64,000 bases of DNA, from NCBI GenBank assembly GCA_903813345.2, contig CAIIXF020000004.1, positions 16,661,513-16,725,512 on the forward strand. The letters run 5' to 3'. The position numbers and the translations under genes were made by a program. A model generated the notes under the pieces. The model did not search any database. It saw only the letters and a program-made list of their open reading frames with translations, and had not been told where the DNA came from. The stretch is from Owenia fusiformis (taxonomy: Eukaryota > Annelida > Polychaeta > Sabellida > Oweniidae). Below are positions 1,083 to 26,300 of this stretch, piece by piece (position 1 is the first letter of the stretch; every line of letters starts with the position of its first letter).

Positions 1083-1692
1083 GTGCTTGTGTGTTCAGTG
1101 TTTGTTTGTAATTGTTTGTTTGATTTCGACAGATGATGATGAGCAATACATTGACCTTATGATATGCTCCCTCGAAAAGACACCTTCATACGCTTTTGAT
1201 ATCTTTTGAATTGACCAATGCTATAATCGATCACTAATATAAATTCTGATTGATTGAATAATTACATTACGATACATTTTAATGACATCTTGATATACTA
1301 TTGTACTCGAAATTATTGGAAAGCTGTTAATAAACTAGATTGATATACAGTTGACTTGTTTGTCTCTAATATAAGAACATATGACCTTGTTTGTTTGTAT
1401 GTTTGTCTTCTCACTTGTTTGCTTGCTTGTTTTCAGTAGTCATTCTATCACAAAGTAAAATTTAATTCTTTACACGACGACCATAACATTTTCCCTGGAC
1501 CAAGGGAGACTAGGTTAATGGCATGGGAACTGGCTTTTGGCTAAGGGTATTCTCCTTCGGAACGTAATGGACAAAGGAGGAAATAATTGTTCTGGGATGT
1601 GACTTCTCAATCGACCGACCAACTAACAATATTTATGTCTTAATATTTTTTCTGAGGTTCATAAAAAGGTGTTCAGATAGAGAAATCATATT

Positions 1693-1803
1693 CTAGCTAT
1701 ATGTCCCTGTGATCCCCCACTACACCCCCCTCCATCTTTGTGAGAAGGTATGTAGTCAAATAGCGGGAGGGGAGGGGGTCACAGGAGCTTGTAGCTAGAC
1801 TAC
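1693..1803. repeat. Small inverted-repeat element (hairpin)
   Basis: The left arm around TAGCTATATGTCCCTGTGA pairs imperfectly with the right arm GTCACAGGAGCTTGTAGCTA, with a C-rich and G-rich centre. The same element lies in copy 2 at about 12853-12963, and a related piece is at about 37225-37320 in an ERICH6 intron. It is therefore a dispersed MITE-like family that entered before the duplication. Confidence 0.55.
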
Positions 1804-2077
1804 AGAAGTCACGTATCAGAACGGAGTCAGGATCTAAAAAAGGCGGATTTGTGCTGTATGGCACGTGATGAAAAACATAATATAATCTAAATCATGATAT
1901 AAGGACAATGTTTATCGCTTTTATTTCAATTAGGTCAATATATTTATTTAATATATATTTGGATGTTGATCCTGGCGGGAGCCCAGTGCACATAAATTAT
2001 TCTCAAGTGGTTGAAAATCATAAATCATAGAAAATAAATAAATTGTGGCTGGTAGTTAATACAGGGAGTGGGAGTTA

Positions 2078-4994
2078 TAGGCGATCAGCCTGGGGGGTTG
2101 GTCGGTACCAAATCAGGGGAATAATGACCATGGTGATTTTTGGGAAGGTCTAGACCCCTAGAGTAAGAAAATATGTGATAGCATTGCAGAAGTGGTAGCT
2201 TAATAGGTGTTATCACCCATTTTTCAAAATGGCCGCCGGTGCGCTTGCTACCAAATAAAAGAAGTTATATTTAAGCATACTGAGAGGCAAAATCAGTGAT
2301 TTTTGGGTCTAATTCTGGGTTTTAGGGGTCAATGATTTGAGTTATGCCTAAATCCAAGTCATCAAAACATTAATTTATATGAAAATCCAAGATGGCCGCC
2401 AAATTTGGTTCAAAAACAAATATGTTCTAATGATACAAGCTCAAAAACGTTTCAACATGATTTTGAAGAGTTTTAGAAGAGGTTTTAGAGTCTAAAGATT
2501 TTATTCATGTCTAAAGCAATGTCATCAAAGGATTACTTTATATTGAAATCCAAGATGGCCGCAAAATAGGTGCCAAAACGAATATGTCATTACAGTATTG
2601 ATATACATGTAAGCTCAAGGAACAGATAAAAAGCAATTTTGTAGACAATGAAAGGGTTTAGGGGTCAAGGATTTCATTTATGCCTCATTTAAGTCAAGTC
2701 AGCAAAGAGTTGCTTTATATGGAAATCCAAGATGGCCACAAAAATGAAAATGTAACTACATGTATCGATATTTAGCTCAAAGAACAGATAAAACTTAATT
2801 TTGTAGACCATGAAAGTGTTTGGGGATCAATGATTTTATTGTCTTAGTCATCAAAGAATAACTTGATGTGGAAATCGAAGATGGCTGCCAAAATGAATAT
2901 GTTACTATTAATACATGTTCAAAGTGATTTTGGAGACCATGTCTAGGTTTCAATGGTCGAGAACTTTAATTATGTCTGCAACTTAGTCATCAAATAATTC
3001 TTTTATTTGGATATTCAGGGTGGCAACCAAAATGGCTGCCAAAAGAATAAGTAATTTTGGAATACATTTATTTGAATATCCAAGATGGCCCTGATGGGAT
3101 GTACCATCTCAATTGTACCCTCTTCATCGCAGCAATGAACTGGATTGTGAACAAAGAAGAGTCCAAGTAAAGAGGTCTCAAAGTGAATGATGACACAAAA
3201 CATCCTTCTTGCCAAGCCTTTATGGACATCATCACTGTTATGACCTAGTCATTCTCTGGAGCACAACGGATTCTAAGCTGCCTCGAGATGATGGCCAATT
3301 GGGCATGTATCTAGTGCAATCCAAGGAATCTTTTCAGCTGAATGGTATACAAAGGAAGCTAATGTGCAATTTTTCATACTATCGATGATGAGAGAATTGA
3401 ATCTTGGGAAATATTTCGATGAGTTTCTTAAAGATATCAATAGCATCTGTGAGAACTAGAAAAATGAATGAAAGCTATTGACCTTAGCCATGTAGGGAGT
3501 TGGTTCAAAGTCTCATGCGTTCAGTTTTTTGTTATTCTCCTATGGCTTTTCCAACTATGTAACTTCCATTACAACAACAGAGGCTGAGGAGAAAGAGCAA
3601 CATCAACAGGGTAAGAAGGGGTGACTTGCAAAGGTTACGTGGGAGTAGATAGGCAACTTTGGTTCCAATAGTCTCAAACAAACACACACCCAAAAAAGGT
3701 TAATAAGTATTTTAGCACTCTGGGAATCAGCTCTTGACAATGGACCAAGTTAAATTTTGGTGTATCTTGAAAGCTCTAATTCCAAGAAAAAAGAAAAAGA
3801 GAAAAACAAAGAAAATGAAAAAAACAAAAACAAAGACAAAAACGAAAACAACACTGAACACTGAAAAATATAGAGGTTATAACAGATAAAGAGAGAAATA
3901 AGCTAGAAAATAGGAAAAACGTAACCAACAGCCAATTTGGCCGCGATTTTGGCAGCCATCTTTGATTTTCATCAAGACAACAATTTAACAATTAGAGTAA
4001 AGAGAAAAAATGTCAATGGTAACTGAAATCTTCAATCTCTAGATCCTAGTTAACTAGTCAAAGATACTACAATCACTTGCCAACATCCTCTGTTAATGCT
4101 TATAGATATACATGTATGTACTTGTAAATATTCATTTTGGCAGCCATTTTGGTGACCATTTTGGATTTTAATATGAGGAAAGGTTAAGATGACTTTGGTT
4201 AAGGCTAAATTGAAACCATTTTCCCCTGAAACCTAGTTTCAGATATCTATTACGTACATTACTTTTCTAACTTTTCTATGTGCATATAAATTCATTTTAG
4301 CAGCCATATGTTTGGCCATTTTGGCAGCCATTTCAAATTTCTATATAAAAGTATTCTTTGATCACTTAGATTTATCCATGGATGGAATCTGTATTAACCT
4401 CTAAAGCCCTATCATGGTCTGCAAAAGCACTTTTTAACTGTTCTTTGAGTTTATATAAATACTTTACATATTCATTTTGGCACCCATTTTGGTGGCCATC
4501 TTGGAATTTCATATAGAGGATTTCTATTATTATTTTTTTTAGCCACAAATAAAATCCCCAGCCTCTTAAACCTATTCATGGTCTCCAAAGTCACTTTTTA
4601 ACCGTTCTTTGAGCTTTTTCTAGCTTATATCAATAGTAACATATTTGTTTTGAGACCCATTTTGGTGGCCATCTTGGATTTCCATATAAAGCAACTTTTT
4701 GATGACTTAGATTTTGACATAAATGAAATCCTTGACCCCTAAAACCCAGAAATAGACCTCAAAATCACTGTTTTTGCCTCTCATTATACTAAGATAGGAT
4801 TTCTTTTATTTGATAAAAAGCGCAATAGCAGCCATTTTGAAAAATGGGAGATAACACCCATAAGCTACCACTCCTGCAATGCTATCACATATTTTCTTAC
4901 TCTGGGGGTATTTACCTTGCCAAAAATCACTATGAGCATTATTCCCCTAACTTGGTACCGATAACCTAAATTTTGGGGTGAAGCTGATGGCCTA
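2078..4994. mobile_element. 2.9-kb foldback element with internal repeats
   Basis: The termini are inverted: TAGGCGATCAGCCT at the left and AGCTGATGGCCTA at the right. The complementarity extends inward for roughly 170 bp or more, including the ends of the 'atgtgatagcattgca' and 'ttcaaaatggc' words. A TTA flanks both sides (2075-2077, 4995-4997) and occurs once in copy 2, so the target duplication is 3 bp. The left half carries several direct units with 'ccaagatggccgccaaa'. The right half carries the same words inverted ('ggcggccat...ttgg'), so the whole element could fold on itself. The centre (about 3100-3620) looks like decayed coding DNA. No intact transposase is seen, so the superfamily is unassigned. 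Confidence 0.8.
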
Positions 4995-5203
4995 TTAGGG
5001 ATGGGTATCTCAAATCTAGCTAATACCCTTTTTGTCCAACTTTCTTTCTTCCGTCGTCTTACATTTTAACGCATATCGTTTAGCAAATCGAACGCTCGTT
5101 GCTGGTGTTGCTCACCGTTTAGTATAACCCCGGAATTATACTCAAGGGTTCACAGGTTTGAGGTCGTTGTGTAAACACCTCTGCCCTGTTTATGTAAAGC
5201 CTG

Positions 5204-5331
5204 GGTCACATTTGCTCCGATTCATCGGCCGTCGCCCTGCCGATTGAGTGTTCTGTTCAAAATTGTATTCAGTTTGAAACAAAATGCTCAATCGCCCGGG
5301 CGCCGGCCGATGAATCGCAGCAAATGTGACC
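5204..5331. mobile_element. 128-bp palindromic MITE (family A, copy 1)
   Basis: Ends are GGTCACATTTGCTCCGATTC and the near-complement GAATCGCAGCAAATGTGACC, with GC-rich arms (CGGCCG, CCGGGCGCCGGCCG) around an AT-rich loop. The same insertion is present in the other duplicate (13455-13582), so it predates the duplication. A diverged relative is at 5874-5995 and a half copy at about 19512-19570. Confidence 0.8.
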
Positions 5332-5355
5332 ACGGTATAACAATAGTATAGTATA

Positions 5356-5850
5356 CAATTATTGACCTCTCCAGAGGTTTACAGTCGAAGGATATAATTT
5401 TGACAGTAAACCGAATGGAGAGGTCTATAATTGTTTTGTTAGTCCGAAGAATATCTTAGATTTTTCTGACCCTTGAAGTTGACTTGAAGTTGGATCCAGA
5501 CCCTCGAGACGTTCATGTTGTATTTCAAACACAATATTCCTTACATCACTTAATGGAGTCAAATTACTCTCCTGGGCGAAGTCCACTAAAAGCTTTGTAC
5601 AAAGTTTTAGATTTTTCTTCGTATTTTGACTGTCTGTACTCTCTAAGAGACTAATAATATCCTCATCTTCAACATTTTTGAAACGGCTAGTGCTAGCGGC
5701 GGCCATTTTATCGTCTGATAATGACGTCATTTTAGTGGAATGCTGGGAATATTATTCACCGGCAATGCATTGCGCGGTGTACAGTTAAAATTATTCACCG
5801 CTCGTTGACCAATCAAAATCGAGTATTTCAACTGAGGTACTAACAATATA
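5356..5850 (-). mobile_element. 495-bp insertion with Crypton/DUF3504-like N-terminal ORF
   Basis: This block is absent from copy 2, where a single TATA stands. In copy 1 TATA flanks both ends (5352-5355 and 5847-5850). No terminal inverted repeat is seen, though an internal inversion of the left end lies at 5356-5372/5418-5434. On the minus strand 5425-5730 encodes 101 aa, with a stretch reading RFKNVEDEDIISLLES followed by DSQNTKKNLK. This resembles the N-terminal part of Crypton-type tyrosine recombinases and the DUF3504/ZMYM-like proteins. That is family memory, not a search result. The catalytic part is missing, so this would be a non-autonomous derivative. Confidence 0.5.
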
Positions 5851-5861
5851 GATTGTCACAC

Positions 5862-6345
5862 ATTTAATGCCTTGGTCACATTTGCTTCGATTTCCACTAC
5901 GGCGCCCGTGAGTAATTTGTTCAAAATAGAATACAATATTGAACAAAACACTCAATCGGCCGGGCGCCGGCCGATGGATCGGGGCATATGTGACCAAGAC
6001 CATTTTGACAAATCAATTTCACATTTATGGGTGAAGTTTCAGGATCTTCTATTTGTGTACGTAATAAGGAAAACTTCTAGAGTTCCCCATCACGCATATA
6101 GCGCACAGCATGGCTTAGGAAATATCCTACAAATGAAACAAAGCAGTTCTAATACAAGGATTTACATTGGCTGTTGTACATGCATCCTTTGGACGGCGCG
6201 GTTCACTGTTTACAGAATCATTGTAAACGCATTACTTCATCTCCAAGACGATTTCAATAAAATGGAATTTTCAAAACTCCTCCTATTTCTTAAAAATGGA
6301 CTGATCCAGTTGACTCGCCTGGAGCCATCACATTGTTTTTTTATA
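5862..6345. mobile_element. 484-bp block absent from copy 2, carrying a MITE
   Basis: Copy 2 joins GTCACAC directly to GGGAAGCTTATC, while copy 1 has 484 bp between. The block includes family A MITE 5874-5995. The rest (5996-6345) has no recognisable content. A 181-codon plus frame across it (5872-6417) shows no protein-like pattern and overlaps the MITE. No clear target duplication is seen, so a deletion from copy 2 is possible instead. Confidence 0.55.
5874..5995. mobile_element. 122-bp palindromic MITE (family A, diverged copy)
   Basis: Begins GGTCACATTTGCTTCGATT and ends GGCATATGTGACC, with the internal GCCGGGCGCCGGCCG arm shared with 5204-5331. The internal loop differs from the first copy, which shows independent insertion. 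Confidence 0.75.
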
Positions 6346-6736
6346 CGGGAAGCTTATCGTAACCATTTAAACTTTAAAGCCATAATTAAGTCATATTCAA
6401 AATATAACATTGTTTAGATTTCATGCATTTTATTTGATTGTCTTCAGAGTTTTTGCGATGATCTACAATACACACTATGACCAACGATTGATGTGTATCG
6501 CCAACATATACCCTCTCTCATATCCTGAAACAATATTTTTGACTGCGTATTAAATTCACCATTGTGGAAAACGATTGGTGCAGTCTACGTTGTTTCCATG
6601 GCACCCCGGTTAAACCAACGCCGTTATGGTTAGAGGGCATTCTGTAAAGTAGTGTAAAAGATTGTTAAGAAGTGGAATCGAAGCAAATAAATTGCGAATA
6701 ATTTGTGGATACGGAAAAACGGAAAACCTCGATGGA

Positions 6737-7751
6737 ATGGAAACAAATGAGCTGGTTTGCAGAAGGTCATGTCTAACTGACCGCAGTGCCATAGCTGAAA
6801 TGGTCGACAGCGTATATGATCACAGGCTGGTATCGAAAGATTTGTCCGCTGTGATGGAGCATGCTATTTTTCATAAAAACACTAAGAATGCTTCACGATT
6901 TATTTTTTAACTCATATGTTTCGTTATATCAAATATAATTACTTACTCCATGCAATAGATATATCATTTGCGTATAACCTTCACTACTGTTTGAAGTCCA
7001 ATAACGCTAGGAGTAAAATTTATTGAAAACGGCGCCAGAGTATCAAACTCTAAAATGAACCATTTCTTTTTTAACTTTTTAATGGCATGATATAGTGACA
7101 CGATAATATTAACATATATTTTCAGCATATCTCTGAATGTATTAATGAGATATTAATGCATTGGGTCTTTTTAATTTTTTTTATAAAAAATAATATTAAT
7201 ATTTTTTGTCCGCTGTGACGGAGCATTTTCACAGTTCACATTTGCAACTGCTCCGTCACAGCGGACAAAAAAATTAAACATTATTTTTTATAAAAGAATT
7301 AAAAAGACCAAATACATCAACATCTCATTTATACCTTCATAGTTATGCTGAAACCATGTGTAAATATTATCGTGTCACTATATCGAGCCATTAGAAAGTT
7401 AAACAAGAAATGGTACATTTTGAAGTATGATACTCCGGTGCCATTTTCAATAGCTTTTCTTCCCAGCGTAATTGAACTTCAAACAGAAGTGAAAGTTACC
7501 CGCAAATGATATATCCATTGCATGGAGTAAGTAATTTTGTATGGTATAACGAAAGATATGAGTTAAAAAATAAATCGTGAAGTATTCTTAGTGTTTTTAT
7601 GAAAAATAGCATGCTCCGTCACAGGGGACAAATATTTCGATACCAGCCTGTGATGATGGCTTAGATTATCTAAACGCATTTTACTCACTTTATATGAAAC
7701 AAAACTTCAGATATTGTTTTGTTGCCGAAAAGAATGGGAAAGTGGTGAGTT
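6737..7751 (+). pseudogene. Disrupted first exon of acetyltransferase-like gene (duplicate copy)
   Basis: Codons from METNELVCRRSCLTDRSAI to VYD (about 6737-6820) match exon 1 of the gene at 14013. The remainder (from about 7653 to the donor near 7746, ending AEKNGKV and GTGAGT) is also present. An 832-bp foldback splits the exon after the Asp codon, and translation through it ends at 6908-6910. The upstream start context also differs from copy 2. The exon remnant could not encode the GNAT N-terminus unless the foldback were removed. Confidence 0.75.
6821..7652. mobile_element. 832-bp foldback element inside duplicated exon
   Basis: Two arms of roughly 400 bp are inverted copies of each other. 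The left end is CACAGGCTGGTATCGAAA and the right end is TTTCGATACCAGCCTGTG. ATGAT flanks both ends (6816-6820, 7653-7657) and occurs once at the copy 2 site, a 5-bp target duplication. The centre (about 7205-7267) is a second hairpin that repeats the subterminal TTTGTCCGCTGTGA word. No coding capacity is seen. The superfamily is not assigned. The 5'-CAC end with a 5-bp duplication would be compatible with Transib-like ends but is not proof. Confidence 0.85.
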
Positions 7752-7798
7752 CCAGGTTTTGTTTAACATCCTCACATTTTGAGAATTTGGAGGGAATG

Positions 7799-8168
7799 TA
7801 GTCTATATCCAATAGACTGAATTTCCTGAGAATTCAGTCTATTGATCATTATGTCCCTCCTGTGGGAAAAAACAGGAAATTTCAGGCACAAAATTATCAA
7901 TTTTAGGAAACTTTCCTTCCCAAAAATAAGCATTATAACTCAATTAAGTAGTAAGGTACAATTAAATGCTATGAAAAGTAACACAGCATATTGTCAAATG
8001 GAAATAAAGCTAGGGGAAGTAACATATATGCAAATTAATTTGCCCAGTCGGCCATTTTGAATGGCACTTCCTATGTAAACAAATATTTTTCAATCCCAAA
8101 TTTTAACATAGTCTGAATATTTTCATTCCAAATTTCAAAAAAAAATTCAGACTAAAGGATATAGTCTA
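7799..8168. mobile_element. 370-bp MITE with 10-bp target duplication
   Basis: Terminal inverted repeats are TAGTCTATATCC (7799) and GGATATAGTCTA (to 8168). GGAGGGAATG is duplicated at 7789-7798 and 8169-8178 and is single in copy 2. A second hairpin lies near the left end (AATAGACTGAATT/AATTCAGTCTATT). The long target duplication points to a Mutator-like type, by inference. It sits just past the donor of the broken exon. Confidence 0.8.
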
Positions 8169-8762
8169 GGAGGGAATGGTACGGTATACGTAAAAATTGC
8201 TTCAAATTGACACATTTCTTAAGAATCACCTAGAATTTGCCGGGAGAGTCATATCTTCAATCGGACGATTTGAGATCTGACCCTTAAAGGTCATGTGTCA
8301 GTTTAAAAATATAGTTTAATCATTCAAATATTACTTTCACGACCTGAAAAAACATTTGAGCCATTTTTGAAAAATGGGACTTTTGAAAAGGGTTGTTTAG
8401 CCTATGAGTTTCAAATATTTGAATTTACCGCCATCTTAAAAATAGTGTAGATTTTATGATCTTCCGATACAAGAATTACAAAACACATCATTTTTCTACT
8501 AGATCTATTGAATAGCTCAGGCCATATAGTGCCCAAAAGTCATACCAAATGCCCAAATATGAAACCAATGCCATGCCAAATGTCCCAAGGTCCCAAAAAG
8601 AAGGCGATCTTTGAGGAAAACGAACCAAAACAACCTCATATTAGGATATGTGTACCTACTAGACGAATTCCATACCATAATTGTGAGATAACATATTTTC
8701 CATGAACATTCTCATACCAGAAAGTTGAAAAATCTGACCATTTCCATCTCTCAAAAGTCATA

Positions 8763-10688
8763 ATGAGGGGCATTATCAAAAAGCTTGAAAAGCGTAAAAA
8801 AGCAGCCTGGAAAGACTGGGTTGATCAGGGCAAGCCTAGGTCACTTGGCAATATATATTGGGATAAATACAAAGGGGAAAAAAAGTCTTTTAGGCGTGAA
8901 TTCAGGAAGGCGCAACAGGAATTTGAAAATAAATGCCAACTTGAAATTGATAAAATGGAAGAGATATCTCTTGATCAGTTCTGGTGCTTTGTTAAGAATA
9001 AAAAAACTAGAACAAGCAACCCCCCTGTTATAAAATCAGATGATGGGAATGTACTAATGGATGAGCTTGAAGTCACAAATGAATGGAGGTCCTATTTTGA
9101 ATGCCTTATGTCAGATCATGGAACCGACAGTGATATGTATGATAAAACATTTTTTGAATATGTTAATGTATCCATTAAACGTATGGAAATTGAAAGCTAC
9201 AAACGAAATGATTTATCTTTTGATGAACCAATTGAATTTAGTGAAATGCATAACATGTGTAAAAAATTATCAAAAGGTAAAGCCCCTGGATGGGATTCAA
9301 TAAACTCTGAACATTTAAACATGGGTGGTCCCTCAGTGATCCAAGTTTTAACGAAATTATACAATCATATTGTTTACAGCGAACATATACCTACATCTTT
9401 CAAGTTAGGAATACTTTCCCCAATCTTTAAAGGGGGCAATAAAGATTCGCTCAATAAAGATCATCACAGAGGGATCACACTGATGACAACCTTTATGAAA
9501 CTGATGGAACGTTTAATGTTAAATAGGTCAAAATTATGTCCACGAAATGAACCTAAATCTGAAATGCAGGGTGTTGGTTTAGAGAAAGTATCTAGCTTGA
9601 ATATATCTTTACTGACACGTGAAGCTATCTCATATGGAATAGAAAATGGAAATGACGTCATAGTGACGTCATTAGACATTAAAAAGGCGTTTGACAGTGT
9701 ATGGCATAATGGCCTCTTCTATAAATTATATAACATCGGTATAAATGGAAAATTGTGGCGCCTTATTAAAGATTCCTATAATGGATATTCATGTTCAGTA
9801 AAGATATCAACCCCCCCCCCCCTGTCTGACCCCTTCCCTGTGAAAAGGGGAGTCCATCAGGGCGGAATTAACTCGATGGAACTCTATGCTCTATTCATGA
9901 ATGAGCTACTCAATAATATCCAGAGATGTAAGTCAGGTTGTAAAATAAATGGCTTGACCATAACATGCCCTTCATATGCTGATGACACAATAATCTTATC
10001 TTACCATGAAAAATCAATGCAACATTTGCTAAATATCATATATGAATATAGCCTGAAATGGAGATATCAGTACCATCCAGAAAAATGTCAAGCTATTGTC
10101 TTCTCTAAAAGTATGAAAGTAAAAAATCCAACATTAGTCCTGGGAGATAAAAAAATTCCAATAAATAGTGACTCGATTCAACATTTGGGATTACCAATTT
10201 GTAATAAATCAAATTTAGAACATATAGAAAATGCTTTGTCAAAAGGAAGGAGAACAATTAATGCATACATTGGTGTGTCATCTACTGTAAATAACCCGTC
10301 AAATCCATTAACTGCATCAAGGCTATATTGGACAATATGTGTCCCTACAATAACATATGGAATGGAACTATTACCCTTAAGAGAGTCTGATTTAAAGTGT
10401 ATTGAAAATGGTCATAGAGGTATTGCTAGGAAAATTCAAGGGATTCCAAAACATGCAAGTAACGCAGCATCAACATCTATGTTGGGCTGGCACTCCCTTA
10501 CCTCCAAAATAGTCATCAATAAACTAATGCTCTTATGGCAACTAATATCTCTGCCATTTTCAAGCATCTTTAAAAGGGTAGCTGTATTACGTATTATCAA
10601 TGCATCCTATGAGAGCCTAAATAGCTTCTCACCAATAGGAAACTGCATCCAGATAGCAGAGGCATATAACCTTGAAAGCTATATATAG
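8763..10688 (+). pseudogene. LINE reverse-transcriptase ORF (first part, 641 codons)
   Basis: This is the long frame through the RT fingers, palm and thumb of a non-LTR element. Catalytic aspartates are visible in LDIKKAFD and YADD. It ends at 10688 with NLESYI and stop, while the matching C-terminal part continues in another frame from about 10675. That indicates a frameshift in a formerly single ORF. It lacks the upstream APE-type endonuclease expected for Jockey/CR1/I-like elements. Assignment below the non-LTR level is not attempted. Confidence 0.85.
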
Positions 10689-11383
10689 AATGATGTCTCA
10701 TGAATTTGAATTATCTAAAGTAAAATGGAAAAATATTGTTAAAAACAAAGTGCACCAAATTGAAATACGAAAATGGCAAATGGAATGCATACTTTCAAAA
10801 AAGCTTTATATGTTTAGAATTGTATCCCCAATTTTTAAACCCATTATATGGTGGCATATTGCAAAATCAGACCCAAGAGTCTTAAAGTGTTGCAGAACTG
10901 TAATTAAATTGGTTATTGGTGAGGGAAGTATTATGGTAAATGTTAACAAATGGACAAATGGTAGGACTTCGAATGTATGTAAAGTATGTAAGCTAGAACC
11001 TGAAACTCTGAGTCATATGATCCTTAGATGCCCTGGCCATTATGAGGAAAGGGATGCAATCCTAAGGATTCTTAAATCTGTTGTTAATACAACACAGGAT
11101 ATCCCTAATGATACCATTTTGGGCTGGATATTTGGAGCCTGTGATGTATTTAATATACAGCAGTATAAAGAAATATCTGTATATATTCATAAAATTTACA
11201 TAAATAGACCAGACCCTTGGCCTGGCATCACATAATACCATATTGTATATATGTTTACCAATGTACATGTATCACTGTATATATGTTAATTTATCTATTA
11301 TAAATTTTATATAAAAAATTAATGTATAACACATCAGAAATGGTGGATAAAATAAACAAATAAATAAAAAAATAAAAATAAAA
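8779..11383 (+). mobile_element. 5'-truncated non-LTR retrotransposon (LINE), ORF2 remnant
   Basis: The element starts within the RT-upstream region and ends in an A-rich tail with AATAAAAATAAAAA. ATCA flanks both sides (8775-8778, 11384-11387) against a single ATCA in the empty site at 14842-14845. The first five residues of the long frame from 8763 (MRGII) come from flanking host DNA, so that ATG is not the element's own. RT blocks are readable: SKGKAPGWDSI, LDIKKAFDSVW, then SYADDTIILS with the catalytic YADD. The usual RQG/DP block is altered to VHQGGINS. No endonuclease domain is present. It is truncated and frameshifted, so inactive. Confidence 0.9.
10672..11235 (+). pseudogene. LINE ORF2 C-terminal part after frameshift, CCHC-like motif
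   Basis: This continues the RT protein in frame +1 relative to the preceding frame. Near the end a knuckle-like Cys/His motif is seen: CKVCKLEPETLSHMILRC. Such a motif is common at the C-terminus of several non-LTR ORF2 proteins. The equivalent region in the second LINE fragment (25501-26418) is CEVCNLIENEKHIMRSC. Confidence 0.8.
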
Positions 11384-11589
11384 ATCATACCACATCCTAA
11401 AATTTGGGTCCATTGCCATACCAAATGTCAAAAAAGGTATATATACAGTGAACCCCCATTGGTTCGAGCGCCCAAACAAATTTCTGTTTTCAGTCAGGTG
11501 GGGGGGGGGGTGCGATTGTGGCATTAAAAAAGCCAAAAATTAAGATCCATCTTGAATTTTACAAATCTTGATTCAACTTCCTTCAAAAT

Positions 11590-11800
11590 AGGGCTAGAAG
11601 CTAAGACCCCCCACGTTATAAAACTAAGAGCCTGTTATAAAACTAAGGCCCCCCACGTAATAAAACTAAGACCCTGTTATAAAACTAAGACCCCCACGTT
11701 ATAAAACTAAGACCCTGTTATAAAACTAAGACCCCCCACGTTATAAAACTAAGACCCTGTTATAAAACTAAGACCCCCCACGTAAAAAAAACTAAGACCC
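11590..11800. repeat. Minisatellite, about 42-bp unit
   Basis: About five alternating units of the words ACCCCCCACGTTATAAAACT and AAGACCCTGTTATAAAACT. It lies in the spacer between the two duplicated segments. Confidence 0.85.
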
Positions 11801-12190
11801 TAAATATAGTACGCAAATGCTATATTTCACATGAACATAGTGTGTTTTCATAAAATGAGTTTCTCTTACATTTAAAACGGACCAAGCTAATTCTTTGGAA
11901 ATCACTATATTGTGCAACTGATTGAATTGAAAATGTCAGTTCCCAGCAATTAATCTACGTTACAATATAGGCATGTTCAATGCTTGGTTTTTTTACAAAT
12001 ATATAACCATGACAGTATCCAATATTAGTGTTTAACAATGCAGAGATATACTCCTTTGCTCTGCTAAAAAGTATCAAACCGAGGCAATGGTCACAAAAAA
12101 TTTACACTTAATGATTGAATGACTGACAAACATTATGGAAATTACAATTTTAAGGACAAACACATAAGATATTTGTAATTGAGCAAAAAA
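11801..12190. other. Spacer between duplicates, no gene seen
   Basis: AT-rich DNA without coding pattern or clear repeat boundary. Confidence 0.4.
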
Positions 12191-12487
12191 GTGCTTGTGT
12201 GATCAGTGTTTGTTTGTAATTGTTTGTTTGATTTCGACAGATGATGATGAGCAATACATTGACCTTATGATATGCTCCCTCGAAAAGACACCTTCATGCG
12301 CTTTTGATAGCTTTTGAATTGACCAATGTTATAATCGATAACGACTATAAATTCTGATTGATTGAATGATTACATTACGATACATTTTAATGACATCTTG
12401 ATATACTATTGTACTCGTAATTATTGAAAAGCTGTTAAACTAGGTTGATATATACAGTTGACTTGTTTGTCTCTAATATTAGAACAT

Positions 12488-12540
12488 AGGACCTTATTTG
12501 TTTGTTTGTTTGTTTGTTTGTTTGTTTGTTTGTTTGTTTG
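12488..12540. repeat. TTTG microsatellite
   Basis: About a dozen TTTG units. The equivalent place in copy 1 (near 1390) has only two or three, so the tract changed length after the duplication. Confidence 0.9.
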
Positions 12541-13454
12541 TCTTCTTATTTGTTCGCTTGCTTGTTTTCAGTAGTCATTCTATCACAAAGTAAAATTAAA
12601 TTCTTTACACGACGGCCATAACGTTTACCCTGGACCAGGGGAGACTAAGTTTAACCTAGGTGTATTAAAATGGCACGGGAGCTGGCTTTTGGCTAAGGGT
12701 ATTCTCCTTCGGAATGTAATGGACAAAGGAGGAAATAATTGTTCTGGCATGTGACTTCTTCTCAATCGATCGACCGACCGACCGACTACATGTATGTCTT
12801 AATATTTTTCTGAGGTTCATAAAAAGGAGTTCAGATGGAGAAATCATATTCTAGCTATAAGTCCTTGTGATCCTCCACTATACCCCCCCCCCCATCTGCG
12901 TGAGAAGGTATGCAGTCAAATAGTGGGAGGGAAGGGGGTCACAGGAGCTTGTATCTAGACTACAGAAGTCACGTATAAGAACGGAGTCAGGATCTAAAAG
13001 GCGGATTCGTGCTGCATGGCACGTGGTGAAAAACATAATCTAATCTAAATCATGATATAAGGACAATGTTTATCGCTTTTATTTCAATTAGGTCAATGTA
13101 TTTATTTAATATATATTTGGATGTTGATCCTGGCGGGAGCCCAGTGCACATAAATTATTCTCAAGTGGTTGAAAATCATAAATCACAGAAAATAAATAAA
13201 TTGTGGCTGGTAGTTAATACTGGGACTGGGAGTTAGGGGTGGGTGGGTATCTCAAATCTAGCATACCCCTTTTTGTCCAATCTTTCTTTCTTCCGTCGTC
13301 TTACATTTTAACGCATATCGTTTAGCAAATCGAACGCTCGTTTCTGGTGTTGCTCACCGTTTAGTATAAAAGGCCCGATCCCGGAATAATACTCAAGGGT
13401 TCACAGGTTTGAGGTCGTTGTGTAAACACCTCTGCCCAGTTTATGTAAAGCCTG

Positions 13455-13582
13455 GGTCACATTTGCTCCGATTCATCTGACGGCGCCCGGCCGATTGAGT
13501 GTTCTGTTCAAAATTGTATTCAGTTTGAAACAAAATGCTCAATCGCCCGGGCGCCGGCCGATGAATCGCAGCAAATGTGACC
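13455..13582. mobile_element. 128-bp palindromic MITE (family A, copy in duplicate 2)
   Basis: Same element and same site as 5204-5331, with GGTCACATTTGC ends and GC-rich arms. It was therefore inserted before the segment was duplicated. Confidence 0.8.
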
Positions 13583-14012
13583 ACGGTATGACAATAGTAT
13601 AGTATAGATTGTCACACGGGAAGCTTATCGTAACCATTTAAACTTTAAAGCCATAATTAAGTCATATTCAAAATATAACATTGTTTTGCTTTCGTGCATT
13701 TTAATTGATTGTCTTCAGAGTTTTTGCGGTGATCTACAATACACACTATGACCAATGATTGATGTGTATCGCCAACATATACCCTCTCTCATATCCTGAA
13801 ACAATATTTTTGACTGCGTATTAAATTCACCATTGTGGACAACGGTTGGTGCAGTCTACGTTGTTTTCATGGCACCCCGGTTAAATCTACGCCGTAATGG
13901 TTAGAGTGCATTCAATATGCGAACATTAAAAGTTTGGCTTGTCAAGTAGTGTAGAGGATTGTAAAAAAGTTGAATCGAAGCAAATAAATTGCGAATAATT
14001 TGTGGATAATTT

Positions 14013-17000
14013 ATGGAAAAACTTGATAGAATGGAAACAAATGAGCTGGTTTGCAGAAGGTCATGTCTAACTGACCGCAGTGCCATAGCTGAAATGGTCG
14101 ACAGCGTATATGATGGCTTAGATTATCTAGACGCATTTTACTCACTTTATATGAAACAAAACTTCAGATATTGTTTTGTTGCCGAAAAGAATGGGAAAGT
14201 GGTGAGTTCCAGGTTTTGTTTAACATCCTCACATTTTGAGAATTTGGAGGGAATGGAACGGTATCCGTAAAATTGCTTCAAATTGACACATTTCTTTAAT
14301 TAAAAATCATCTAGAATTTGCCGGAGAGTCATATCTTCAATCGGACGATTTGAGGTTTGATACTTAAAGGTCATGTGTCAGTTTGAAAATATAGTTTAAT
14401 CATTCAAATATTACTTTCACGACCTGAAAAAACATTTGAGCCATTTTTGAAAAATGGGACTTTTGAAAAGGGTTGTTGAGCCTATGAGTTTCAAATATTT
14501 GAATTTACCGCCATCTTCAAGATAGTTAAGATTTTAAGATCTTCCGATACAAGAATTACAAAACACATCATTTTTTCTACTCTATTGAATAGCTCAGGTC
14601 ATATAGTGGCCAAAAGCCATACCAAATGCCCAAATATGAAACCAATGTCCCAAGGTCCCAAGAAGAAGGCGATCTTTGAGGAAAACGAACCAAAAACAAG
14701 CTCATATTAGGATATGTGTAACTACTAGACGAATTCCATACCATAATTGTGAGATCACATATTTTCCATGAACATTCTCATACCAGAAAGTTGAAAAATC
14801 TGACCATTTCCATCCCTCAAAAGTCATAATGAGGGGGCATTATCATACCACATCCTAAAATTTGGGTCCATTGCCATACCAAATGTCAAAAAAGGCATCC
14901 CATGTGTGCCGAGGATCCCCTTCAAGGTTTATATACAGTAAACCCCTTTAAATAAGTATTACATTCTTACAAAACATTTGCTATTGAATATACTAGCATT
15001 CAGTACAAGTTCATGAGGTCATTATGAACTCCTCTATAACAAAATGAAAAAGCAAATAAAAATCCTTTGATTTGGAATCAGCTAAAAGTGTGGGAATTGC
15101 ATGTTTCAGAATTTGACATATCTCAAATGAACTCTAAAGAATGAATTGTATGTTTGACAAATACAAAAAAATGCTTTCATGTGAGGTACACAAATGAAGG
15201 GGGAGATTTGTGGATAACATAAAAAATCGAACCCCTGGTCACCAATTGCTGGCTTAACGCCACTGTTCAATATGGCTTCGCGAAACGCAATTCGTTGCTT
15301 TGCTTTGGCTACGTCAGACTTAAATAAGTCAGCAATATCATTCTTATATCTTTCAAATGATAACGTACAATCAAGTAGAGATACCATTAACAGATTTTAA
15401 ATGCAAAAGTCTCTCTTTAAATTTTAAATCTTTAAATGGACTTTTCTGATGCATGATTGAATGCCGTTAAATGTCATTTGGAATGAACATGTATGGTTGT
15501 CCTGCAGTTTGTGGTGCATGCAGAAAAGACTTCACTACGTCACCCTGCAGCTGGTCTTCACCCATAGTAAAAGTTTCTCAAGTTGTAAAAACAAATCAAA
15601 GTGTCTTACGTCATTCACGATAAGAGATTAAGACTGAGGGAACTAGGGTGATTGGGTGCTTGACGACATGGCATCTGCACCATCGATGTAAAATGTAAAA
15701 GTGCTTGTTTCTTGCATCAGTGAAAGATTTTGGTGAAGTTGATTTAAAAAAGATAAATAATGTGGTGTGCACATAGTTATTGAAAATAGAAAAGATGTGT
15801 TCAGTATAAACTATGATTGCATATGAGTCCACATATGTCACATGACGTAACTGCTTTTTCCTTGGAGATGGTGAAACACGACACGATTTATTCAGCTATT
15901 AATGCTTTAAGTCGAGTTTTGATGGAAAATTAACCATAAAGGTGATAATATAAGACACAAATACAAACTTGTTTCTCAATTCAGGCAGCTAATCAAAAAT
16001 GCCCATTCGTGAATTAAGACTTCTCTTTAGGGAACATAACTCATTGTCATTTCTATTCAATTTTCTTGTGAAAATCGACACGCGGAAAAATGGTGAACCA
16101 GCCTAATGATCATTTTTGCATCTTTCACAATGGTAAATGAAATTTCCCGAAGCCCGAAGGGCTCGTGAAGTACATGTATCATCCTGTGAAAGTGTCACTG
16201 GTATTTGTTTTATTATTCACTATTATATGACAGTGGTATAATGATATCCAATACTGAATTTTGAACACAATGCATAAGTACATGAACTACGATTTGAATA
16301 ACTTCAATCGAGTATGTCGTGATACAAAATTCGAATTCAAACAGCCGCGCGCCATTTTGTTCACTTTCTTGAATTGAAAGCCCATGTTTTAAACAACGAA
16401 TATACCGGTACTTATTTTCATCATATTTGAATGAAAATGTATCAAAACTCTAGTAACATCTCAACCTTTTTAAAGGCAGAATCTATGGGGGTAACAAAAT
16501 TACAAGTAACATGTATATTAACAATCTCAAACACAATATCTCCCAAAAGATTCACGATTTGTTATAAATTAAGTTACAATGGATTCAAAGTGCAAAAATG
16601 GGTGAACAACGTTTAAATTCTCCCAAATAATAAGAATCGTAACCAAAATAATACATTATTGTAAAAATCTTTTGTTTTCCTTAAATAAAGTGTGCACTTT
16701 GGGGATTTTTAGTAAATAGACATGAAAAGGAATGTGATAAGCCAGAAATATTTTAAAATTGAATTTTTTTTGTTAGGCTGCTTGCTAGATCTGATTCTCT
16801 CATTAAGGCAGTGATGGTCAACGAAAGGCCGGATCAGAAATCTGAGGTCAGATATAAATCTTTGTCAATTGTCCAACGACTCATTTTCTAACATGTCTAC
16901 CGCTGTCTCGGAAACCGGCCATGTAAATGGAGAAATGGTTATATTTCTTGTAATACATGCCAAACAATATTATGTCACTATATTATTTAAAGTTTACTGG

Positions 17001-20000
17001 AACTATAAAGGCGGGGTATTTAACTCGATCTGTTATTCAGATATGAACATATCATGGCTCAAGAACCTCGGCGTGAATAATCATGAGATTAGTGTATTGT
17101 TTCGAAAATCCCCTTGTAAAATCACGATTGATATTTTAGGTATCCTATATTCACACGGTGTTATAGCATGACAGATACGCCACCTCTGAAAACGAGGTTA
17201 GTCGAATACGATCACTGATTTATCCAATAAAATGGCCACGATGAAACAGAAAGCTAAGGTAGGTGCATTATGTTCTACTACTGCGTATCAATAAAAGCAT
17301 GAACGATTTATGTTAGCGTCGCATTCGGTGATGCATTCAGTAATGTTTATTTTGAACGTAGTCTTTGCAAATCGACGCCCATGGATAACATGAAATAAGC
17401 GAAAAACTGTCGAGTTTGAAATTCAAAACTTCATAAAATTTAGTAATTTGTTTCTTTTCCTCGTTAGGGCATGCTCTACATTGCGCAACAACCTTGGTGT
17501 ATATAAATGTAACCTACATACGATCATACAAAGCCAATTAAGCATTGTAAACCACTTAATATGTTCTACTCAAGCCATGATAATGTATTTTGAATTTGCG
17601 GATACGCCAAAAATTGATAGACAGTTACGCGAACCTCGTTCATATATGTAAAACCGAATCATTTCATATCGCTTGTGATCCAAAATTGAAATGTTTTTCA
17701 ACCGGATTTGAGTTTTGTAAGCTATAATAGATGAAATCGTATTATTACCACCTTGCAGGGCCTGTTCTAGGGGTTTTAGTACTAGTTGAGAAGGCATTTA
17801 AATTGCTATATTGACGTGAGCAATATTGTGTCGGGCGTTAATGACTTTAGTCGGGCAATAATGATATTATCCACCCGGCTATGTTTCCCGGGAAAAGTGA
17901 TATCGTTCAGTGCGTAAGATTTTCTATTTCAAATTTGCTATTTCAGCCCTGGGCATTAACGGTGGTAATAATGGTAATAACGTCATTTCTGCGGGCAAAA
18001 TAGTGAAATATTGGACCTTGGGCCTGCGGCCCTTGGTCCAATATTTCACTATATTGCCCGCAGAAATGACGTTATTGTACTATTATGAAGATGGTGACAT
18101 AAACAGCTGAATATGATTTGTAATAATGGTAATATATGTCTAATGGTTCTCATGACATCATTTCTTCCGTCGCCTGTTCGTTGTTACTAATTTCTTCCTT
18201 TGCCTCTTCATTACAATCATTTTCACTTTCATTGGCTTTCGCTATTTTTTCCTTGCCCTATAGAGGCTCAAGCAAGAGCGTCTCTTGCGAGTCCTGAAAA
18301 CAAATATAGGCAGTTCACACATAGAGAGCTATCCATCTAGGGACCTTGACTTGACAGGAACTTGCATGTAACCGTCCGCTAACATCTAATGTAAAACTAA
18401 TACAATGCGTTGCTGTCCATAAAAAAGCATGCAATACATACGTATCTGTCTAACGACCTTGCGATTGAAACCTTATTATCTACAATATTTACCACATTTC
18501 TGTTCAACATTTGTCATTTTATGACTTGTTTATACACAGTTTACGTACAGTTAGTATTTTGAGTGGCTCTGAGGCACATATACTGAGAAAACACGAAAAA
18601 TGACTAAAAATTATGAACTTCGAAATCTCAGCTGGGTAGGTTTACAGCTTATATTCTGCTTCTTGTAGACCACACGACAGATTTAACTCAATCTTTATAA
18701 CCATTCACATATGCATCACCGAATGGAACTAGTTGAAAAGGAAAGCTTATCTGTGAATCTTGCCTACAGGCGAAAAAGAGGACATGCTGTCTTTCCCGTC
18801 CGCCATTTTTTGTTATCGTTACCGCAAAATTTGGCCAATTGCCTTGTCGTATCTGTCATGCTATAACACCGTGATTCAGTTCACTGTGCTCGATGGAGGT
18901 AGAACGGGAGTAAGACAAGCAGCCAGAACAGCCGCGCAACATAGAGGGAAGGGATTCTACAAGATACTGGAGAACTATTCAACCATGCAGATTAATTTTC
19001 TGTGCCCAAATCTAGAGCAATGGGCTTACACAGCATACTGGAATACCTTTGAAAAGAAAAGGATATCAAATCCTGAGCTGGGCTATCAGCTCATTGATAA
19101 GAGGGTGAGTTCAACTCCCAGCGTTCAACTTCCGATCTTCCGAACGCAGAGGTCCAACCATGATGCCTGAACCCCTGCGTTCGGAGGATGTCAACGGTTG
19201 AACCCCCATCTTGTCTTTACCCTATGATAATTGTAATGTACTGAACGACAACATACGCGCTCCTTGGAGTTTCGTAAATTACTTTCAAACTTGCGGTGCA
19301 AAACTGAGACTCGGGTGCAAAATGCCTGAAACATGTTTTTTTTCGCCCGGTTTTTTTCGTACAATATCACATACATGTAGGCTACTGGTCAGCTATGTAG
19401 AGGGAAAGTGCATTCTAAAATACAAGTTACTATAAAGACAGAGTAACACCTGTGACCAAAATGAAAAGGTGGGTAATAATTGTAAAACGCCTGTTTCAAT
19501 AGTAATGCCTGGGTCACATTTGCTCCGATTGAGTGTTTTGCAATTGTTCAATATTGAATTCAATTGGTGAAAAACTGCATGATTTTGAAAGATTGTTTGG
19601 CCGGGGGGGGGGTCGCTCGAACCCATCAAACCCCCCTGGCTATGGGCCAGGATGTGCACTGTTGGTAAATCACTTAATCAATCAACAAAATATTTTAATC
19701 CATTAATCTTTCTGACATAGATGCTGGAGATCTGACATGCTCACATGTTTTAGCTTATTCAGGCGCACTATACCTTTTGATACCGATATGCCAACGTTGT
19801 CAGTTCATTCGTTCTGGTCAATACCACAGGGGTGCCATTGACACAAACTTTGGTGTCTTTATGCGCTTGAATTTGTTGTTCTTGTTAAAAACATGCGACC
19901 ATGCACTGAGAATCAGTTAATTGAGTATTAAGAATTTTAATCGATTAAACTTGTGTCGATCAATTAATCGATGATCGATTAAATAGTTGATAAATTCGTT

Positions 20001-21128
20001 TTAAACACATTTGGCTTTGCTCATCTTTTTCTATATATTTTTATGACCATTAAGTCAATGACCGTGTTCCTAAGGCCAGTCCTTTCAAGTTTTAAACGTT
20101 GGAAATCGCTTATTTTAGGAACAAAATGTCAAGATTACTTTAGTACACTGTATCTAAGACTAACGCTACAATACGTTTTAATTGTAACCAACGGGTCAGA
20201 TTTAAACACCAATTTATTACCCGTGCAAAAAAAGAAAAATGGGATAACATAAAAATACTTCAGGCTGGCGTTTGTTATTAGCAAATCTTTTGGTAAATTA
20301 AAGGCCAAAATAAGACCAAATAACGTTACAAAACTCACAGACTTATACTTTCATTTGCTTCTTTCATAATTTCATAATCGTTTCTTCAGCATTTTAAGTT
20401 TGCATTTTGTAATTGTACATGTGTAGTGTTGACACATAGATTCCGTGTTAAATTATTTGAATTATTGGAGAGTATGGTAGAAAAAAGATTCTCTGGACAT
20501 TATGTCCCAAAAAGGTTACTTTATAAAGGTATCCATATTTCTTAAATGAGACACTCATTCTTTTCAGTATTGGAAGGTGTATATCATAAAGGAGACTGAC
20601 GTTTATCTCAACACTGTTCACCCTGGGAACAATGGCCTACCTACACAAACAGAACCAATGCATGAAATCAACATTGACGAAGCCGAGGGAATCCTCAAAG
20701 ATCCAGATAACAAGGAACGCCTGGTCCCTTCTGGGTCACTCTGCAGTTCATGGGAACCGTTTAGCGTCGACGATGGCCTTAGAACCAACCTAACTGCCAT
20801 CTATACGAGATCTAGTGTCTGGGGGACTAAGATTGACGGTGACTGTCGTGCCCTTAGTACCGGTACCATCTACGAATGCCCAAAAGGACTTATGTATGAT
20901 TTGGACTATTACGGACAAGAATTCAAGCAGTTAAAAGCTCATATTTTATCTCATGTGAAACACGCTCTTAAAGAGAGTAACATGAACAGGCAGTTGTATT
21001 TATGTGTGTTTTGCCCTTTTGAGATGTCTTTGGCTGATTTGGACGAGTTTATGTTAAAAGATATGGGATGGAAGCCCGAGCCTACCGATGAGACACCAGT
21101 CTATGTGACTATCACAAAACGACTTTGA
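14013..21128 (+). CDS. GNAT acetyltransferase, histidine N-acetyltransferase/NAT16-like, 3 exons
   Basis: Exons are 14013-14201, 18880-19104 and 20568-21128, all joined in phase 0, giving 324 aa. Exon 1 ends AEKNGKV before GTGAGT. Exon 2 starts after TGATTCAG and reads FTVLDGGRTGVRQAAR then HRGKGFYKIL, the GNAT acetyl-CoA loop region (R/Q-x-x-G-x-G/A, here HRGKGF). Exon 3 follows CTTTTCAG with YWKVYIIKETDVYL and ends at TGA 21126-21128. The pattern VYDGLDYLDAFY...FVAEKNGKVV is typical of vertebrate HISAT/NAT16 proteins, which acetylate the alpha-amino group of histidine. The substrate here is inferred only. Length fits the family. The first exon lies in duplicate copy 2. An AATAAA at about 21593 could serve polyadenylation. 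Confidence 0.8.
15106..15387 (-). CDS. Unassigned 93-codon frame within an intron
   Basis: The frame begins MVSLLDCTLSFERYKNDIAD and contains the charged, helix-like AKAKQRIAFREAIL. The first half looks protein-like, while the second half is Cys/Phe-rich and less so. It might be an exon or a TE remnant on the opposite strand. I do not recognise it, and a chance frame is equally likely. Confidence 0.2.
   Translation of the reverse strand: MVSLLDCTLSFERYKNDIADLFKSDVAKAKQRIAFREAILNSGVKPAIGDQGFDFLCYPQISPFICVPHMKAFFCICQTYNSFFRVHLRYVKF
17976..18076. mobile_element. 101-bp near-perfect palindrome
   Basis: Left arm AATAACGTCATTTCTGCGGG and right arm CCCGCAGAAATGACGTTATT, continuing inward (AATATTGGACC/GGTCCAATATT) to a short GGGCCTGCGGCCC centre. 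Arms are nearly 50 bp. It is a MITE or hairpin element, or a cruciform-prone site. The imperfect flanks GGTAATAATGGTAATAACG precede it. Confidence 0.85.
19105..20567 (+). other. Intron 2 of the acetyltransferase gene
   Basis: Holds a half copy of MITE family A (about 19512-19570) followed by a G-run dispersed repeat (about 19545-19650). A run of ATCGATTAA-type palindromic words lies near 19930-19985. Nothing coding is seen. Confidence 0.6.
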
Positions 21129-23322: not shown

Positions 23323-26300
23323 TTAGTTTACTTTAACTGTTGGCAAAGTTGGGTCTTGGACGGGATCAGGTGTCTCAGAAATAATATGATGACGTTTTTT
23401 CCGAGTTTTTTCATTCTTTTGTATTTTACTAGCTAAACTAAGAGGAGGTTGAAGTTTCTCAACTTTTGTAGAGTTCGGGTATTTTAATAGATTTGAAACT
23501 TTGTCCAGAAGTGTTCTGAAATGAGAAAATATCAACATTTTAGTTTCATACTTTTGTGAGTCTATATATGAACTATGAATATATTCTTACTGTGGAGGGT
23601 TAAAATACTTGTATTTATACATACATCATGGTAAATTGAAACTTTTCCATGAAGGAAGGAACAATTCTTTGATGAATTCAAAAGTAGCAAGTCCCATTGA
23701 CTAAGATGTTAATGAACCTCTTTACAGGGAACACCTGTATACAACAAAAACAAACAGAACTGAGACTGTTCCATTTACACAGATTTGACTGTATTTAATT
23801 TTTATTTTATTTAATACCTTAGAACATTAAGTTACTTACTCAACACTAGTCTTAGTATCCCTTAGGTAAATGGTTTCCACATCTTCCTCATTTGGAGGTA
23901 GATTCTCCCATAAGACCTGTAATAAAAGAGTTATTTTTTAATTAAAGGCACTTGTTAGCAAAACTCGGTATACATGTATATACAACCAGTATACAACCTA
24001 AACCCCAATAATTAAACATTTCTTTCAAAATTATTAAAGTATTTCATACGGTAAAACTCAATGCATGACCTCCTTACCTTTATTCTAGCACCGACATTAA
24101 ACCTCACACTGCGCTGCTTCTCAGCCATTGTAAGACCAATCTTCTCTTGTGACATCACACGCAGCCCAATCCCAGAGGCGACACCTATACAGATAGGTTG
24201 GAATGGAGGGGCATGAACGTGATCATGTTGGTCCTTCCAAAGCCATCTACGTTTTTTACTACCTTTGTTGTCCAACTCAAGGCCACCTAGTTGATCCAGC
24301 ACTAACCTATTTAAGTAATTCAAAAATTAATCCATGCTAGGAGCTCACCATTAAGCAGGTGTCCAGAATCAGTACCTCTTTCTTCTTCCCTGCTATAACC
24401 AATTTGGAAGCACCCGATTTAACTGAATCACATGATCTAATTATGCGCAATGACATATTTCTGTCGCAGTGTTGCAACAGCCAATCAGATTGCGAGTACT
24501 TAAATGGGGAAATGCTAACTGCTTATCGCAGGGGGGAAAAAGAAAGAATATATTCTGGATTTTGAAGCCCTGTGATCGGAGGATGAGAGCTCATACGTCT
24601 CGAATTCCCGACCTCATGGTAATGGCAACAGGGACTACCTGAGCATGTTCAGTGCTCTAGAACACTCAGTATTGTAATCTGTCCCACGTACAAATGATTC
24701 TAATTGGTTATAAATTCTAATGTTTTTATATAGCCACAGAGCAAAATGGATTAGCTCTCTTATAATAATATTTTGCAGTGTTTTCATGAATAACTAAACG
24801 TAAAGATGGCGCTATACATACAGATAGTAGAAGGGGTCTTACCTTATACTGCCATCAGGATAGTAAACACTGGCATTGCCATTTGGTTCAAATGTTGCTA
24901 GTATAGGGGGTCTATCCTCACGGTCGCCATGGACGATATATGTGAACTGTCCTCGTTCAATGGATGAGATAGTGATAGCATTACGCCCAGAGGAGTAACT
25001 GATATAGTGTTAAGGATAAACAAGGTATTAACATGCAAAATGACACCACCTACCATTTGTTACAAACACTGAACATCAGCCATCGAATGATGAACACAAA
25101 CCGCTAAATACTGACCACCAAACAACATCAGGAGACTGTCACAATATGTCACCACTTCTGAAGGTGATATAGCAACAACACAAATATGTAAACTGGTTGC
25201 AGTTACAAATTGTATCCACTTGTTACAGATACCGAAGTCAGTCACAAATATAAAAAATATAAAAGATGTTGACTATAACAACATAAAATTATTCTTGGTA
25301 CGTTGATGATACAGCATATAAGGCCTGTGTAGGCCCTGAAGGATGGGACCATATTTAGTAAGATATCATTGTAAAGGATACAATACATTCCCAGTGCCAT
25401 CAGGGAAGAGAGTGAGGAATGGCTGCCCATTGGAGTAGTTGCGTCTGATGAACATCTCTCGGTGCTGAAAGAGAAATGTTAAAAAATATAACAGTAAATC
25501 ATGTCATATGCCTTATATGTCTTATATGGATCTGAAATATGGGGCATGTCGAATTACTTTTCTACAAAAGATTTGAATGAATGGTTTACAAATGGCAGAC
25601 GATTTCCATCTGAGAAACTTCTGTTATCTTTTTGTAAATATATTCTTAAAGTAAATAAAAAATCAACAAATTTAGCAATTTATGGAGAGCTTGGGAAATA
25701 CCCACTATATATAAATATATTCAAACAAGCTACTAATTTCTATAATCACATGTTAAATACGTCATACATCTTATTATCAGAAGCACTTACTACATCAAAT
25801 GACTTATCAAAGATCAACAAGTCATCGTGGATGCTGAATTTTAAAAGTGTAATGGATAAATTAGAGGTAGTATCATTTTCAGGAAATACTCCCAGCAATA
25901 TCAATAATACTTTAGATGTAAAAGAATATACTATTGACGCATCCGAAGTTGTTTGTAAATCAAAAATTAGTTTTGAAGATTATTGGCGAAATCAATTGAA
26001 TTCCGACCAATGTCGCAAACTGAATACATACAAAATATTTAAAAGCAATTTCAGGTTCGAACCATATTTAGATTCAATTTCAAATGGGCATTTACGACGA
26101 AGTCTAACAAAGTTTCGTATCAGTAACCACAAATTAAAAATAGAAACGGGTAGATACGAACGCCCAAAATTAAAGATCGATGAAAGAATTTGCGAGGTTT
26201 GCAATTTAATAGAAAACGAAAAACACATAATGCGTTCATGTAAAAAATACAGTATATATAGAAAGAAAATGCTCGATAAACTTGTATCACACGGCAACCC

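Follow-up and report, generated by a model that had tools for sequence, protein, structure and literature searches.

When a first exon is found twice in series and one of the two copies is crowded with extra DNA, it can be asked whether that copy was free to gather insertions from the moment of duplication or was lost only later. Such a pair is present in the window, the whole stretch of 64,000 nucleotides from Owenia fusiformis that was analyzed. Self-comparison of the window revealed two copies on the same strand (Table 1). The duplicated unit measures about 2.7-2.8 kb and extends from upstream DNA through the first coding exon into the beginning of intron 1. The first-pass annotation had described copy 1 as copy 2 plus six blocks, and both the coordinates and the blocks were reproduced by alignment. 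With the blocks removed, 2629 bp of copy 1 (to 11437) are aligned to 2705 bp of copy 2 (to 14895), the positions at which all substitution and indel counts end. The block-free copies differ at 116 of 2600 ungapped columns (4.5%) and by 23 small indels, of which 14 leave copy 1 the shorter and 9 copy 2. Immediately after these end positions, 32 bp flanked by AAGG repeats (14896-14927) are absent from copy 1, and the similarity of the copies stops about 20 bp beyond this gap. The palindromic element P1 must be older than the duplication, because it is present in both copies. A partial third copy of the GGTCACATTTGC palindromic element was observed at 19503-19565, in intron 2 of the gene model described below.

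Table 1. Coordinates of the duplicate pair, its blocks and the predicted exons of the host gene.
Feature	Positions	Strand	Remarks
Copy 1, with six extra blocks	1083-11458	+	Defined by alignment
Copy 2, sites without the blocks	12191-14950	+	Defined by alignment
Spacer between copies, with 42-bp tandem array (11601-11801)	11459-12190		Matches to flanks sought
Palindromic element P1, copy 1	5204-5331		Also found in copy 2
Palindromic element P1, copy 2	13455-13582		
Block b1, 2917-bp foldback with imperfect arms, ends TAGGCGATCAGC / TAGGCCATCAGC	2078-4994		Target duplication TTA, 2075-2077 and 4995-4997
Block b2a, 491 bp	5356-5846		TATA repeat, 5352-5355 and 5847-5850
Block b2b	5862-6344		AC repeat only, 2 bp, 5860-5861 and 6345-6346
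Block b3, 832-bp foldback inside coding exon 1 of copy 1	6821-7652		Target duplication ATGAT, 6816-6820 and 7653-7657
Block b4, 370-bp TIR element, ends TAGTCTATATCC / TAGACTATATCC	7799-8168		Target duplication GGAGGGAATG, 7789-7798 and 8169-8178
Block b5, 5'-truncated LINE with A-rich tail	8779-11383	+	Repeat ATCA, 8775-8778 and 11384-11387
Copy 1 exon 1 (predicted), first part, 28 codons	6737-6820	+	Cut by foldback b3
Copy 1 exon 1 (predicted), second part, 87 nt	7658-7744	+	Followed by donor GTGAGT
Copy 2 exon 1 (predicted), 57 codons, phase 0	14031-14201	+	Donor GTGAGT; NAT16/HisAT-like gene model
Exon 2 of the NAT16/HisAT-like model (predicted)	18880-19104	+	
Exon 3 (predicted)	20568-21128	+	Hisat_C domain and stop

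Element ends and direct repeats at the blocks

Blocks b1, b3, b4 and b5 are insertions into copy 1, since element ends sit exactly at the block edges. The terminal 12 nt at the two ends of a block are alike at 11/12 positions for b1, 12/12 for b3 and 11/12 for b4. The five direct repeats named earlier (TTA, TATA, ATGAT, GGAGGGAATG and ATCA) were checked for position, and each is found as a single copy at the corresponding copy 2 junction. The chance of such end repeats was estimated from 200,000 random block placements, which gave repeats of at least 2, 3, 4, 5 and 10 bp with frequencies of 0.19, 0.067, 0.024, 0.008 and 0.00006. Short repeats by themselves are not decisive, and those of 5 and 10 bp are beyond chance. 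What makes the insertion call decisive is the agreement of the block edges with the TIRs (b1, b3 and b4) or with the A-rich LINE tail (b5).

The claim that the insertions are of different classes was borne out, as two foldbacks, a short TIR element and a 5'-truncated LINE are represented. Long inverted repeats together with a flanking target duplication, as expected for foldback elements, were found in b1 and b3. The arms of b1 lie in several pieces (for example 224 nt at 83%), and those of b3 extend over 391 nt, are about 86-87% complementary and have ends identical over the first 18 nt. Dating of the foldbacks by arm identity was considered but dropped, since arms can diverge before insertion.

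The TTA duplication of b1 agrees with the 3-bp rule given for PIF/Harbinger elements in the excerpted text of PMC2213677. No transposase was found in b1, either in the stop-to-stop pieces of at least 38 aa (33/33) or in one shorter piece; the highest-ranking hits, Mito_morph_reg (E 0.18) and PAP_RNA-bind (E 0.22), did not reach the cut-off. With no DDE/DDD transposase found, b1 was not filed as PIF/Harbinger; a non-autonomous element would lack this enzyme. Block b4 has a Mutator-like target duplication of 10 bp in addition to its TIRs, and 8-10 bp is the range of target duplications given for Tm1 (PMC3169594, in the part available to us).

Block b5 encodes a reverse transcriptase (RVT_1, E 8.6e-29), for which the best PDB match is LINE-1 ORF2 (E 1.3e-23); a zf-RVT match was below the cut-off. 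The block begins inside the coding region, indicating 5' truncation, and ends in the tail AAATAAAAATAAAA before the ATCA repeat. A target duplication of 4 bp is short for a LINE.

The two adjacent blocks b2a and b2b are less clear. Block b2a is likely an insertion. It carries hairpin arms of 19 nt at its left edge (5355-5434), and its ends lack matching TIRs (5/12 alike) and are bordered by the TATA repeat. Its right-hand 8 nt (5839-5846) recur in inverted form at 5436-5443, immediately inside the left hairpin, a layout that looks as if a hairpin stood beside a second small element. The block contains a 108-aa minus-strand ORF, which we take to resemble Crypton N-termini. This ORF had no Pfam or PDB match beyond chance; Osteopontin (16 bits against a cut-off of 25) and acyl carrier protein (E 0.94) were taken as chance. 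The label "Crypton-like" for this block is not upheld, in that a tyrosine recombinase domain was not found in the ORF, an absence that weighs little because the block is short. According to the excerpt of PMC3212892, short direct repeats occur in fungal Cryptons, none were seen in animal Cryptons, and TIRs are lacking.

The left part of b2b (about 5871-5998) is a further copy of the palindromic element that both copies carry. This block may have been gained by copy 1 or lost from copy 2.

Repeated DNA was also observed elsewhere in the window. A satellite-like array occupies 26815-28810; its periods of 152, 342 and 500 bp overlap, and its units are up to 98% alike. A 32-bp tandem array of about 14 units is located at 33495-33953. 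At 45943-46213 a 21-bp minisatellite lies in an open frame and gives rise to RSRDTEG-like repeats in a 337-aa ORF. The 306-aa ORF at 25498-26415, which presumably resembles the C-terminal part of another LINE, had no Pfam match. Rfam searched at the gathering threshold gave no match within the window.

The host gene and its two first exons

Exon 1 of copy 2 joins exons 2 and 3 in phase 0, yielding a predicted protein of 318 aa. The putative splice sites, read from the sequence, have GT donors and AG acceptors at both joins. A second in-frame ATG lies 18 nt upstream of copy 2 exon 1. A Hisat_C domain was detected on exon 3 (E 3.4e-9, 37.1 bits against a cut-off of 27), and the joined model matches the NAT16 structures 9emo and 9emd (E about 1e-8). 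This match starts at residue 22, within exon 1, and is weak overall (38 bits). NAT16 is the human histidine acetyltransferase (PMC12219266, in the part available to us), and the gene is predicted to encode a HisAT/NAT16-like acetyltransferase. The designation of copy 2 as the live first exon is consistent with this model, in which the reading frame of the copy 2 exon continues through exons 2 and 3 of a predicted open gene. In copy 1, codon 28 is followed by foldback b3, which contributes 29 codons and then a stop. Translation of this exon across its boundary with the foldback gave a match to TRASH_ZMYM4 (E 0.22), which was below the cut-off and taken as chance.

With the b3 insert excluded, the two exons differ at 1 of 171 sites, as against 115 of 2429 (about 4.7%) elsewhere in the alignment (Poisson P 0.003, Fisher P 0.006). 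The longest stretch in which the copies differ no more than once is 228 columns (14029-14256). It takes in the exon together with 55 bp of adjoining intron, and a run of this length was reached in 115 of 5000 shuffles (38 of 2000 in another run). The exon signal is moderate, because 27 of 2088 off-exon windows of 171 columns also have one difference or none. At silent sites (34 in the exon and 54 at the intron start) 0 changes were found where 4.3 were expected (P 0.014). Selection on the protein alone does not explain these unchanged silent sites. One explanation is constraint on both copies, with luck accounting for part of the silent result; the other is a short gene conversion tract that has made the exons alike. 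The data lend moderate support to the view that, over much of its history after duplication, copy 1 was probably under constraint or subject to gene conversion.

The LINE provides a further time point. In b5, a single frame break (between 10655 and 10685) and no in-frame stop were found over two overlapping coding pieces totalling 2467 bases (15 counted twice). Insertion of the element at the time of duplication would predict 9.0 frameshifts and 2.7 stops (P 0.0001), where the indel rate is taken from the shared, mostly non-coding DNA and 3 of the 19 frameshifting indels in the estimate are longer than 10 bp. On this model the relative age of b5 is 0.09 of that of the duplication, with a Poisson upper limit of 0.40. 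LINE b5 thus looks younger than the duplication, given far fewer frame breaks and stops than expected.

Competing readings and the order of events

The pair could have arisen through an assembly artefact, in which two haplotypes of one locus were placed in series and the blocks are allelic insertion polymorphisms. Divergence with many indels and with elements present or absent is possible between alleles, and very heterozygous animals can show this. In older vertebrate assemblies 4 to 16% of the sequence was falsely duplicated, mainly by divergent haplotypes, and half read depth, gaps and discordant pairs are the marks of such errors given in the excerpted text of PMC9516828. Merging predicts that the spacer resembles the right flank at its beginning and the left flank at its end. 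Neither 14951-18000 (best E 0.27) nor 1-1082 (best E 1.2; the window starts at 1) was significantly matched by the spacer, and no N occurs within the window. Merged haplotypes are the less likely reading because the spacer is unlike both of these stretches. The possibility had been raised by the first-pass annotation against its own account, and for the flanks compared the result goes against merging; we regard an artefact as improbable. A narrower objection is that b2b, and perhaps b2a, are deletions in copy 2 rather than insertions in copy 1. Here the balance is even. The ends of b2b share only AC, as end joining can leave, and b2a shows only TATA, in a GTATAGTATA context, without matching inverted ends. 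Against deletion, b1, b3, b4 and b5 stop exactly at element termini; the left edge of b2b lies about 10 bp or less from where a palindromic element ends, so that this block may still be an element, and the inverted 8 nt at the right of b2a leave the same reading for that block. The expectation of precise empty sites in copy 2 holds for b1, b3, b4 and b5, where element ends equal block edges, and is in doubt for b2b, which may be a deletion in copy 2.

A further proposal is that copy 1 was released from selection at duplication and gathered insertions freely, while copy 2 remained under selection. All five repeat-flanked blocks do lie in copy 1, as had been noted, and one of them cuts the exon. 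The asymmetry of 5/5 has a two-sided P of 0.0625. Without the exon insertion b3 it falls to 4/4 (P 0.125), as selection would remove an exon insertion from a live copy, and with b2b also counted as an insertion it becomes 6/6 (P 0.031). The remaining observations speak against release. The copy 1 exon has kept its likeness to copy 2 (1/171 against 4.7% elsewhere), the small indels are spread 14 and 9, and LINE b5 looks late. When the opposite arm of P1 is used as reference, 4 of the 5 differences in the aligned stretch can be polarized, 2 for each copy. Steady decay of the copy 1 exon from duplication onward is not what is seen. The earlier suggestion that copy 1 had been free since duplication does not agree with these counts, and we consider release at duplication unlikely. 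A different history is conceivable, which we offer tentatively: for most of its life copy 1 would have offered a functional alternative to the promoter and first exon of copy 2, maintained by selection or through gene conversion with that copy, until a single foldback in the exon ended this role. The locus would then show a duplicated first exon shortly after its inactivation by a transposon.

The account that we favor, and hold to be probable as a whole, is a tandem-like duplicate in the same orientation, followed by insertions in copy 1, with the exon conserved until a foldback ended it and with the LINE late. A segment of about 2.7 kb, whose contents (upstream DNA, exon 1 and the start of intron 1) are seen in both copies, would have been duplicated in the same orientation. 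At least four, and probably five, unrelated mobile elements would subsequently have entered the upstream copy. Each would have generated a target-site duplication, of which copy 2 retains the single form, as is observed for b1, b3, b4 and b5 and is likely for b2a. The copies would have diverged by about 4.7% off the exon, with the exon kept nearly identical either because both copies were under selection or through gene conversion, as is moderately supported. Foldback b3 would then have ended copy 1 as a coding first exon. The intact frames of LINE b5 suggest that it was inserted late, after most of the divergence.

Comparison with known systems

Tandem duplicates of a promoter and first exon are a known class. 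The present pair resembles them in that upstream DNA and an exon with matching donor and phase lie upstream of one gene body, and differs from them in that copy 1, whose past use is hypothetical, is now cut by a foldback. Among publications judged by their titles and abstract openings, none describing a duplicated first exon ended by a transposon was found. The gene itself is like HisAT/NAT16 in its Hisat_C domain and its match to NAT16 structures, whereas the overall match is weak here (38 bits) and the activity is a prediction.

The use of paralogous empty sites as evidence is established. In the Tm1 Mutator/Foldback family, paralogous ("related to") empty sites were used to validate transposons (PMC3169594, in the part available to us). 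As in the Tm1 study, insertion is supported by a paralogous locus that lacks both the element and the target duplication; unlike in that study, four or five structurally different elements are validated here by one comparison in one 10 kb duplicate. The locus is a good but ordinary record of transposon insertion. Rather than a new mechanism, it represents a useful calibration locus. A single paralogous pair defines the exact ends and target duplications of at least four structurally distinct elements, and the succession of events can partly be read from it: an older palindrome, the duplication, divergence with a conserved exon, and insertions that include a late LINE and the element that broke the exon.
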